This document shows positions 47,633 to 50,627 of a DNA stretch of 64,000 bases, one piece after another. The stretch covers positions 1,302,001-1,366,000 of the forward strand of contig NZ_CP099546.1 in NCBI RefSeq assembly GCF_023973145.1. Reading direction: 5' to 3'. The position numbers and the translations under genes were made by a program. This DNA is from Natronosalvus vescus. Lineage in GTDB: Archaea > Halobacteriota > Halobacteria > Halobacteriales > Natrialbaceae. Every line of letters begins with the position of its first letter. Within the stretch, counting starts at the first letter, position 1. A model generated the notes under the pieces. The model did no database searches. It was not told the DNA's origin and was given only the letters and a program-made list of their open reading frames with translations.

Positions 47633-48481
47633 ATGGGTATGCCGACGCTGGTTGTCACCCTCCTCGCCCTCGGCCTCATTGCTGCTATCGCCTTTCTCGG
47701 GTACGGCCTCTGGGAACTCCGTCTGGCCTATCGAATCTACGGCACCGATCCCGATACTGTTCTCGACGCAACGAACGGTGGGTCGGTCGAACTCGCTGGA
47801 ACCGTTGCCGTCGAGAACGACGTTATCGAATCGCCGTTCACCCACACCGACTGCGTCGCGTTTTCGTATACGATCGAAGAGAAGCGATCGCGTTCGAGCA
47901 AACACGGGAGTAACACGAAATGGGTCGACATCGATAGCGCGACCTACTGGGTGCCGTTCCGACTCGAGGATCGGTCGGGTTCCGTCCTCGTCAATCCCGA
48001 TGGTGCCCGCTTTCGACTGACCAGGGACAGCTCGATTCGGGTCAAGGGTGGTGACGAGCCACCGGAACCGATCGCTCGGTTCATCGCGTCGGACGAGGAC
48101 ATTTCGGACGAGAATACCTCGATTTCACTCGGGCCGCTCGAGCTGTCGACGGGCCGGACACGCCGCTACCGCGAGCGGCGGCTCGACGTCGGGGCGTCGG
48201 TACACGTGCTGGGAACCGCCCGTCACGATACCACCGTCTCGCGGGACGTCGGCCACGTCAATGCCGTCATCGAAGCCTCGGAGCCGGCGAGAGACGGCTG
48301 GCCCGCGTGGCTCCGTCATCGGTTGTTCGGCCCACCGTTCGTGATTTTCGACGTCTCGGAGTCACGGGCCGCCCGTCGCGTCGCGTTCACGGGGCTCTTG
48401 TCGACGTTCGTCGGACTGGTCGCCCTCGCACTCGTCCTCGCCGTCCCCTTCCCCCTCGGGATCCTAGGAGGGGTTCACTGA
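47633..48481 (+). CDS. GIDE-domain membrane protein (MULAN-like, no RING)
   Basis: 282-residue membrane protein: one N-terminal helix (LVVTLLALGLIAAIAFLGYG), an extracytoplasmic or cytoplasmic globular GIDE domain (VELAGTVAVENDVIESPFTH through FRLTRDSSIRVKGG), and a C-terminal helix (LLSTFVGLVALALVLAVPFP). GIDE is the beta-rich domain of eukaryotic MULAN/MUL1 E3 ligases; here the catalytic RING finger is absent and no cysteine pairs exist. Two closely spaced ATG codons (47633 and 47639) are possible starts. Hsp20 and UbiB genes follow on the same strand. Confidence 0.85.
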   Translation: MGMPTLVVTLLALGLIAAIAFLGYGLWELRLAYRIYGTDPDTVLDATNGGSVELAGTVAVENDVIESPFTHTDCVAFSYTIEEKRSRSSKHGSNTKWVDIDSATYWVPFRLEDRSGSVLVNPDGARFRLTRDSSIRVKGGDEPPEPIARFIASDEDISDENTSISLGPLELSTGRTRRYRERRLDVGASVHVLGTARHDTTVSRDVGHVNAVIEASEPARDGWPAWLRHRLFGPPFVIFDVSESRAARRVAFTGLLSTFVGLVALALVLAVPFPLGILGGVH

Positions 48482-48529: not shown

Positions 48530-48946
48530 ATGTCAGCGCTCCGTGACGCGTTGGGTGACCTCTCCGACGCCGTGTTCTTCGATCTTCTCGAGAGCGAGGA
48601 CGCCTACTTGCTCGTCGTCGACGTGCCGGGCGTCTCCGCCGAGACGATCGACGTCGCCGTCGAGAATGGCCGAATCACGATCGAAGCCCGGCGAGAGAAG
48701 GATCTGCCCGGAGAGTACCACTACCTCGAGGAGAACCGGTCGCTGTTTCTGGACGTCGACCTCCCGCTTCCGAACGATGCGACGGAGGCCAAAGCCGAGG
48801 CGACCGTCGACCGGGGGGTGCTCGAGTTGATCCTCCCGAAACGATCGGCCGCGGACGAAACGAAAATCGACGTCGTCGCGGATGAAGATCCGGACGAGGG
48901 CGACGACGATCCCTCCGATTCACCTCGAGCTGACGGAGACGGCTAA
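48530..48946 (+). CDS. hsp20: Small heat-shock protein (Hsp20/alpha-crystallin)
   Basis: 138-residue ATP-independent chaperone. The alpha-crystallin core covers residues 20-105: YLLVVDVPGVSAETIDVAVE, GRITIEARREKDLPGEYHYL, and the A-x-x-x-x-G-V-L-type motif EATVDRGVLELILPK. The C-terminal tail is acidic and lacks a clear I-x-I motif, so oligomer assembly may differ. A Shine-Dalgarno sequence for the next gene starts 2 nt after its stop, so it is co-transcribed with ubiB. Confidence 0.92.
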   Translation: MSALRDALGDLSDAVFFDLLESEDAYLLVVDVPGVSAETIDVAVENGRITIEARREKDLPGEYHYLEENRSLFLDVDLPLPNDATEAKAEATVDRGVLELILPKRSAADETKIDVVADEDPDEGDDDPSDSPRADGDG

Positions 48947-48948
48947 CC

Positions 48949-48956
48949 GGAGGTGA
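48949..48956 (+). promoter_or_regulatory. Perfect Shine-Dalgarno sequence for the UbiB gene
   Basis: GGAGGTGA is an uninterrupted complement of the archaeal 16S 3-prime end (UCACCUCC). It ends 6 nt before an in-frame CTG (48963) and not before any ATG or GTG of that frame, which points to CTG as the initiation codon. Confidence 0.7.
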
Positions 48957-48962
48957 CCTGAG

Positions 48963-50627
48963 CTGGCCACCCTACACGCGTACCGTCGGTTCGTCGTCGT
49001 CGCCTGGCACTTCTTGCCGCTGTTGCTGGCGTACGCCCGCGACCGCCGACGATGGCTGCTTTTTGGGCGACCCCGACGGGTCGACCCCGATACGCATCGC
49101 CACCGTGCGGAGGTGCTCCTCGAGTCGTTGCTCACGCTGGGGCCGACGTTCATCAAACTCGGGCAGTTGCTGTCGACGCGCCCGGACGTTCTTCCACCGG
49201 CATACATCGAGGTGCTCTCGGCGTTACAGGACGAGGTGCCACCAGCCGACTGGGCGGATGCTCGGCCAGTCCTCGAGACTGATCTCGGACCGGTGGACGA
49301 ACGGTTCGACCAGTTCGACACTGAGGCGATCAGTGGTGCCAGCCTGGGTCAGGTGTATCGAGCCTCGATCGACGGGGAACCGGTCGCCGTCAAGATTCGT
49401 CGCCCGGATATCGAGACGCTGGTCGAGGCTGATCTGCGGGTGATTCGATGGTCGCTCCCGATACTGATGCGGTTCGTCGACGAGTCCCGCTCGTTCTCCC
49501 TCGAGAACCTCGCCGACGAGTTCGCGAAGACGATTCGCGAGGAGATGGACTACGATCGGGAGGCGGCGATGCTCACCGAGATCCGGTCGAACTTCGATGG
49601 TGACGATCGGTTCGTGATCCCGTCGGTGTACGAGGCCTACTCGAGCGAGCGCGTCCTCACGATGGAGTACCTGGGCGGGACGAAGATCAACGACGTCGCT
49701 GAACTGGATCGAAAGGGAATCGATCGGGAGCAGATTGCCGAGAACCTCGAGCGCTCGTACCTGCAGATGATCATCGACGACGGCGTCTTTCACGCCGACC
49801 CGCATCCGGGTAATCTGGCCGTGACGGATTCGGGACAGATCATCTTCTACGACTTCGGGATGAGCGGTCGGGTCGATCCGTTCGTCCAGGAGAAAATCGT
49901 CGAGTTCTACATCGCGGTCGCCAACCAGGACATCGACGCCATCCTCGACGCGCTGATCGAGATCGGTACCTTGAGCCCGGAGGCGGATCGTGCGGTGATG
50001 GCCGAGGTGATGGAACTGGCTATCGCGGACGCCCGCGGCGAGGCTATCGAACAGTACCGCGTCCAGCAGATCGTCGGCCAGATCGAGGACTCGATCTACG
50101 ACTTCCCGTTTCGCCTGCCGAAGAACCTCGCGCTCGTGTTGCGGGTCGCGACTGTCGTGGAAGGCGTCTGCGTGACGCTCGACTCCGATTTCGACTTCAT
50201 CGCGACTGCGACGGACTATCTCACCGAACAGGGCTACCGCGAGGAGTCCATCCAGCGGGTGCTCGAGGACTCCGCGGGGCGGGTTCGCCAGGCGGGCGAG
50301 TCCGTGATCAACGTGCCGCCAAAACTCGAGCGAACGCTCGACCGACTCGAGCGGGACGACCAGTTCGTCCGGATCGGCGTCGAGGACTCCGACCGGGTGT
50401 TCGCAAAACTCGCCAAACGGCTCGTGTATGGGATGTTGTTAACGATGTCGCTCTTCTCGATGGGCGTGCTCTACGCGCTCGGTGCGCCCGAAGCGTCGGT
50501 CGTCGCCGCCGTGTTTTCGGTCGTGTTGACGGTGTTGCTGTACCGGTCGTTCCGCGGGCCGCGCTCGATCAGGGCCAAACCGCAGTTCACCCGCCAGAAC
50601 CTTCGAGAGCGACGGGGCGAGGACTGA
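48963..50627 (+). CDS. ubiB: UbiB/ABC1-family atypical kinase
   Basis: Membrane-associated ADCK-type kinase/ATPase linked in other organisms to isoprenoid-quinone synthesis. From the CTG at 48963 the protein has 554 residues; the first canonical-type start in frame is TTG at 49014 (537 residues). The CTG is favoured because a perfect GGAGGTGA precedes it by 6 nt. The added residues (ATLHAYRRFVVVAWHFLP) also look like the usual haloarchaeal N-terminus. Motifs: TFIKLGQLLSTRPDVLP (KxGQ), SGASLGQVYRA (Ala-rich loop), VAVKIRRPD, EEMDYDREA, HADPHPGNLAV, YDFGMSG, and two C-terminal membrane helices (YGMLLTMSLFSMGVLYALGA). It is in an operon with hsp20. Confidence 0.93.
   Translation: MATLHAYRRFVVVAWHFLPLLLAYARDRRRWLLFGRPRRVDPDTHRHRAEVLLESLLTLGPTFIKLGQLLSTRPDVLPPAYIEVLSALQDEVPPADWADARPVLETDLGPVDERFDQFDTEAISGASLGQVYRASIDGEPVAVKIRRPDIETLVEADLRVIRWSLPILMRFVDESRSFSLENLADEFAKTIREEMDYDREAAMLTEIRSNFDGDDRFVIPSVYEAYSSERVLTMEYLGGTKINDVAELDRKGIDREQIAENLERSYLQMIIDDGVFHADPHPGNLAVTDSGQIIFYDFGMSGRVDPFVQEKIVEFYIAVANQDIDAILDALIEIGTLSPEADRAVMAEVMELAIADARGEAIEQYRVQQIVGQIEDSIYDFPFRLPKNLALVLRVATVVEGVCVTLDSDFDFIATATDYLTEQGYREESIQRVLEDSAGRVRQAGESVINVPPKLERTLDRLERDDQFVRIGVEDSDRVFAKLAKRLVYGMLLTMSLFSMGVLYALGAPEASVVAAVFSVVLTVLLYRSFRGPRSIRAKPQFTRQNLRERRGED

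Follow-up and report, generated by a model that had tools for sequence, protein, structure and literature searches.

A conserved CTG behind hsp20 as the probable translation start of a haloarchaeal ABC1/UbiB-like gene

The window – the whole stretch of DNA analysed here, 64,000 nucleotides from the genome of Natronosalvus vescus – carries a gene for a small heat-shock protein and, directly behind it, one for an atypical kinase-like protein (Table 1). A first interpretation made from the letters alone (the sequence-only reading) had called the latter a UbiB gene. At the level of the ABC1/UbiB-like family this name stands, the match to Pfam PF03109 (ABC1) scoring 246.9 bits against a cut-off of 22.9, but the score against the NCBIfam UbiB equivalog TIGR01982 (345 bits) falls below the cut-off of 487.55, so 'UbiB-like' is the safer name. 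Of 126 distinct haloarchaeal loci, 124 have an Hsp20 relative on the same strand and at most 600 nt upstream. The pair kept in this way, which occupies 48530–50627 in the window, suggests that the small heat-shock protein and the ABC1/UbiB-like protein are functionally linked. The gene ahead of hsp20 (47633–48481) matches Pfam GIDE (E3 ubiquitin ligase) with 30.3 bits, the cut-off being 23.6.

The ubiB frame, which runs to a TGA at 50625–50627, is closed upstream of its 554 codons by another TGA that is itself part of the Shine–Dalgarno (SD) sequence GGAGGTGA. The 16S rRNA of the same genome ends in GGATCACCTCC and pairs with this octamer along its full length, as had been claimed, with a duplex energy of −16.9 at this locus. 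The ubiB frame of the window is free of ATG, GTG and TTG from the TGA at 48954 as far as the TTG at 49014, and its CTG at 48963 follows the SD sequence at a spacing of 6 nt; the positions given for these elements by the sequence-only reading, and its statement that no in-frame ATG or GTG precedes the TTG, are all correct. The SD sequence also contains a GTG outside the ubiB frame, whose own frame is shut after two codons (GTG ACC TGA).

Table 1. Features of the hsp20–ubiB-like junction, in positions of the window
Feature	Position	Strand	Basis or remark
hsp20, small heat-shock protein (Hsp20 family)	48530..48946	+	PF00011, 48.9 bits, cut-off 20.8
hsp20 stop, TAA	48944-48946	+	16 nt ahead of CTG
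Shine–Dalgarno sequence GGAGGTGA	48949..48956	+	sequence; 16S 3' end; GGTG spacing in 102/102 family loci
GGTG core of the SD sequence	48952-48955	+	ends 7 nt ahead of CTG
Out-of-frame GTG in the SD sequence, then ACC TGA	48953..48955	+	sequence
In-frame TGA, bars starts further upstream	48954..48956	+	TGA at codon −3 in 96/102 family loci
CTG, probable start codon	48963..48965	+	102/102 family loci without ATG/GTG/TTG through +2
ABC1/UbiB-like atypical kinase-like protein	48963..50627	+	554 codons from CTG plus TGA; Pfam PF03109
TTG, codon +17, first in-frame canonical start, judged not to be the start	49014..49016	+	TTG in 1/101 loci
KLGQ, which we take to be a KxGQ-type motif	49155..49166	+	K65, G67 and Q68 invariant in 25 sequences

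Taken by itself, a bare match to GGAGGTGA is weak evidence for a start, because the octamer occurs seven times in the window against 2.87 expected from shuffles (4 of 100 shuffles reach seven) and four of the seven copies have no ATG, GTG, TTG or CTG in the following 14 nt. The full-length match on which the sequence-only reading had leant is thus real and, considered alone, of little weight; the case for a CTG start is supported far more by comparison between genomes. Folding of the RNA around the start (48925–49005) was no better than that of shuffles (z −0.33), and a scan for sigma-70-type promoters, which is uninformative for an archaeon, returned none.

Two overlapping sets of loci were compared. 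The first sample held 139 haloarchaeal loci, of which 126 distinct ones were counted after 13 duplicates had been left out. For the second, every genome offered for the window's own family, the Natrialbaceae, was searched (n = 125) and the gene was found in 124, the sole miss being a genome that is 53% complete (G148); this family set includes 72 additional start regions, and at least 37 genomes are common to the two sets. The family name was inferred from loci whose start regions are the same as those of named records, for instance Natronosalvus hydrolyticus, a member of the Natrialbaceae according to NCBI taxonomy. Column 0 denotes the alignment column of 48963, and loci are termed obligate if the stretch that runs from the last in-frame stop to codon +2 inclusive is free of ATG, GTG and TTG. 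By this rule, one locus with ATG at −14 (G074) and five with GTG at −2 were scored as having a canonical start despite the CTG at column 0.

The obligate filter leaves 102 of the 124 family loci, and every one of them has CTG at column 0 and a GGTG that ends exactly 7 nt before it; in the first sample 41 of the 126 loci pass, again with CTG and with GGTG at 7 nt in all 41. Cultured species in which CTG is the sole candidate include Natrialba aegyptia (L050) and Natronorubrum texcoconense (L048). Among the 126 loci as a whole, column 0 is CTG in 90, GTG in seven, ATG in three, TTG in two and CTA in one, the remaining 23 having codons that are neither leucine nor NTG. Where ATG or GTG stands at column 0 – ten loci, nine of them outside the window's family – no other canonical codon lies between it and the upstream stop, and ATG, GTG, TTG or CTG is found at column 0, +1 or +2 in 125 of the 126. 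From these two counts, the gene most likely starts at column 0 or at the codon next to it across haloarchaea. The alignment of orthologous N-termini, which the sequence-only reading had named as a check, therefore comes out in favour of the CTG, with 102 of 102 family loci keeping it at a fixed distance from GGTG and ten of the 126 having ATG or GTG in its place.

How unusual this constancy is can be judged from codon changes counted on a nucleotide tree of the 102 obligate family loci, at columns with at least 90% leucine: none fell at column 0, compared with 2–42 (median 19.5) at 18 other leucine columns. Two of the latter, columns 52 and 65, are mostly CTC and, with two codon changes each, nearly as frozen, so the invariance of the CTG alone is no proof. 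More telling is the local pattern, in which an invariant GGTG is followed by a variable spacer, the invariant CTG and then codons 1–3 that vary at all positions. Across codons 4–16 of the same 102 loci the differences per codon position (0.106, 0.056 and 0.313) fall mainly on the third, as in translated codons. The two codons between the TGA and the CTG are about as variable as synonymous sites, which indicates that the conserved N-terminus probably begins at the CTG or directly after it. The sequence-only reading had carried a plausible family N-terminus down to the TGA at 48954; a conserved N-terminus is indeed there from the CTG or just behind it, but the codons between TGA and CTG do not belong to it by this measure.

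The other 22 family loci offer some contrast. In 16 of them CTG is kept at column 0 and an in-frame canonical codon lies at −14, −3 or −2; column 0 is GTG in three and TTG in two, four of these five also having GTG at −3, and the single locus with CCG carries one GTG at −3 and another at +1. These GTG, TTG and CCG loci are weak controls, since most of them also possess GTG at −3 or +1. Within the window's genus (L001–L008), five of the eight genomes have CTG with GGTG at 7 nt, two have TTG at column 0 together with GTG at −3, and one has CTG with GTG at −3; these differences in the start region amount to natural controls. An uncultured archaeon contributes a locus (L097:2501, 62% identity) with CTG at column 0 and, as its sole nearby canonical codon, a TTG at −10; this locus is possibly a CTG start outside the window's family.

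As the 102 species belong to one family, fixation of the CTG may represent one or a few events. Parsimony applied to a rough tree built from the proteins of the 126 loci gives 13 changes between CTG and other states at column 0 (shuffles: mean 31.5, least 22), a count that was not used for dating the CTG because the deep branching of the tree is unreliable.

The SD duplex before the CTG is strong, with a median energy of −14.0 both in the 41 obligate loci of the first sample and in the 102 of the family, and with values of −10 or below in 37 of the 41. Where column 0 is ATG or GTG (ten loci) it is weak (median −6.75) and the anatomy is different. A strong SD sequence may compensate for a CTG start, on a comparison in which the ATG and GTG loci are few and mostly distant.

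The junction with hsp20 takes two forms among the 41 distinct obligate loci. In 22, hsp20 ends with the TGA of the SD sequence, in the ubiB frame and 6 nt from the CTG; in the other 19, hsp20 ends at another stop, 14–16 nt before the CTG, the distance in the window being 16 nt. The sequence-only reading had set the SD sequence against the leaderless genes common in haloarchaea, a comparison that is inapplicable to a gene directly behind hsp20. Closer relatives are the termination–reinitiation pairs of haloarchaea, which resemble the present one in their short intergenic distance and downstream SD sequence; in the published material available, those pairs mostly overlap or nearly touch, whereas the hsp20–ubiB pair has a CTG start and a gap of 6 or 14–16 nt, at which published efficiency is already reduced (PMC6728339, PMC10666635). 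According to the accessible parts of these studies, SD sequences are amply used at the downstream genes of overlapping haloarchaeal pairs and little at the leading genes, yet in Haloferax volcanii they are not essential, their removal having abolished restart in none of seven pairs (PMC6728339); restart efficiency in the same species is given as 40–60% at 13–14 nt and near zero at 22–23 nt (PMC10666635). Because efficiency drops with distance, the 16-nt gap of the window is unfavourable for reinitiation. By analogy with these pairs, ribosomes leaving hsp20 could plausibly reinitiate across a gap of 6 nt but would do so only in part across 16 nt, and direct SD-guided initiation may add to the translation of the ubiB-like gene.

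All this makes it very probable, on genome comparison, that translation starts at the CTG at 48963, placed there by GGAGGTGA, with some of the ribosomes probably coming from hsp20. The codon would be read as methionine by the initiator Met-tRNA; the strong GGAGGTGA site, 6 nt ahead of it, would place ribosomes on it; and part of these would arrive by termination–reinitiation, having finished hsp20 a few nucleotides earlier. Column 0 or the adjoining codon would be the start of the gene across haloarchaea and, in the window's family, would be a CTG and have remained so. Two features mark a non-canonical start of this kind: the stretch between the in-frame stop and the conserved coding sequence holds no ATG, GTG or TTG, and the CTG occupies the position at which relatives have ATG (three of the 126 loci) or GTG (seven). 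The sequence-only proposal of a CTG start is thereby strengthened, and we infer initiation at the CTG, the first amino acid and the source of the ribosomes from what can be read directly at these loci, namely the conservation of column and spacing, the lack of another usable start, the coding-type constraint after the CTG and the neighbouring hsp20.

The most obvious competitor is a start at a downstream canonical codon – the TTG at 49014 in the window, mostly a TTG at +20 elsewhere – with the stretch upstream of it either untranslated or part of a longer second form of the protein. The first canonical codon does lie at +20 in 70 of the 102 obligate family loci, and column +20 (49023–49025) is TTG in 75 of the 98 that have leucine there, an odd codon preference. 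Yet the first canonical codon falls anywhere from +3 to +102, at +50 or beyond in 16 loci and behind the KxGQ motif in seven of the 102, and the column of the TTG at 49014 itself is TTG in one of the 101 obligate loci with leucine there. The SD duplex before the first canonical codon has a median of −4.5 and reaches −10 in none of 41 loci, the third-position bias of codons 4–16 lies ahead of the TTG at 49014, and a start at that TTG would remove Y7, R9, F10, V13 and F17, which are invariant in 25 sequences. This alternative is accordingly very unlikely, and the same low probability is given to initiation at the out-of-frame GTG at 48953, which lies within GGTG 10 nt upstream of the CTG and from which ribosomes would have to shift into the ubiB frame. 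Such a GTG is present in all 102 obligate family loci, in 93 of them its frame meets no stop before the CTG, and GTGACCGAG forms the first 9 nt from the GTG in 19 of 41 loci; there is also the precedent of HVO_1510, for which the choice between an in-frame CTG and slippage from an out-of-frame ATG was left undecided in the part of the report available (PMC8305020). Against it, in nine of the 102 loci (six of them among the first 41, and the window included) the GTG frame is shut after two codons by TGA, TAA or TAG, the spacer from GTG to CTG varies about like synonymous sites, and under a frameshift the CTG would need no invariance. Nor do the 41 loci share a slip sequence, there being 20 different 9-mers from the GTG; programmed frameshifting would be expected to show a conserved slip site and a zero frame that stays open, and here no such site was found in the 41 loci and the zero frame is closed in nine of 102.

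Two further explanations are less probable still. Readthrough of the hsp20 stop into ubiB, yielding a fusion, would suit the 22 of 41 obligate loci whose hsp20 ends in the ubiB frame, at the TGA that lies 6 nt ahead of the CTG. It is scarcely credible given the other 19, the window among them, where hsp20 has another stop, at a distance of 14–16 nt from the CTG; the hsp20 and ubiB-like genes of the window are, moreover, in different frames. A sequencing error, or a decayed gene that has lost its start, would be admissible for one genome taken alone; with an identical arrangement in 102 family genomes, and a protein that is open and conserved in the loci read, its probability is negligible, and the family comparison already refutes it.

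Whether a CTG start reaches beyond the Natrialbaceae depends on loci whose codon −3, in the ubiB frame, is GTG, of which the first sample contains 50, five of them from the window's family. Column 0 is CTG in 45 and TTG in two; the three without NTG at column 0 all have GTG at +1. In 48 of the 50 a G precedes the GTG, which thus lies inside a GGTG core, as in Haloferax elongans (L062), and codon −3 is ATG or TTG in none of the 126 loci. SD pairing before this GTG has a median of −5.2, against −4.3 in controls and −11.8 before the CTG, although the stretch scored before the CTG includes the GTG itself and the two SD medians are not independent. The pairing, the nearly constant G and the lack of ATG at −3 favour the CTG in these loci. 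Codons −2 and −1, by contrast, show coding-like differences (0.201, 0.107 and 0.432), which favours translation from the GTG, and the CTG kept in 45 of the 50 might owe part of its conservation to another cause. That the CTG is the working start also in Haloferax, Halorubrum and others, with the GTG at −3 being merely the core of the SD sequence, is on these sequence patterns a tentative proposal, somewhat closer to doubtful than to likely. If it is true, CTG initiation would be old and stable in a haloarchaeal gene that is widespread, and would be tolerated since a strong SD sequence behind hsp20 lowers the demand on the start codon; and any gene model that begins at the GTG at −3 may include three codons too many.

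In the window's family, a CTG fixed in about 100 species offers a natural experiment on the acceptance of CUG by archaeal ribosomes in the presence of a strong SD sequence. Annotation restricted to ATG, GTG and TTG would truncate the protein, by about 100 residues in one family locus, and a conserved column combined with a fixed SD spacing can uncover non-canonical starts.

The protein has clear sequence relatives in the ABC1/UbiB/COQ8 family of atypical kinase-like proteins, among them COQ8A/B and the PDB entries 7cy2, 5yjz and 4ped, but the PDB matches score best over stretches that start only at residue 46 or later. Elsewhere in life, CTG can start translation. For archaea, a review of initiation names AUG, GUG and UUG as start codons, CUG being absent from the portion of its text available (PMC7531240). 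A search of open-licence literature on archaeal initiation and UbiB gave, among the matches listed, no report on the start of this ubiB-like gene. The nearest known case is HVO_1510 of Haloferax volcanii, a paralog annotated around EC 2.3.3.13, for which, in the accessible part of the report, an in-frame CTG was proposed and peptides are described from upstream of Met-93, the first alternative start (PMC8305020). There, too, a set of haloarchaeal orthologs is involved in which canonical starts cut a long conserved N-terminus or leave none; as far as that part goes, it differs in concerning another gene, in that CTG was one of two options and in that its orthologs are inconsistent (PMC8305020). 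The ubiB-like gene, in contrast, has one CTG column and one SD spacing in 102 of 102 obligate family loci, and a CTG held at one column and one spacing through an archaeal family appears, as far as searched, to be new.
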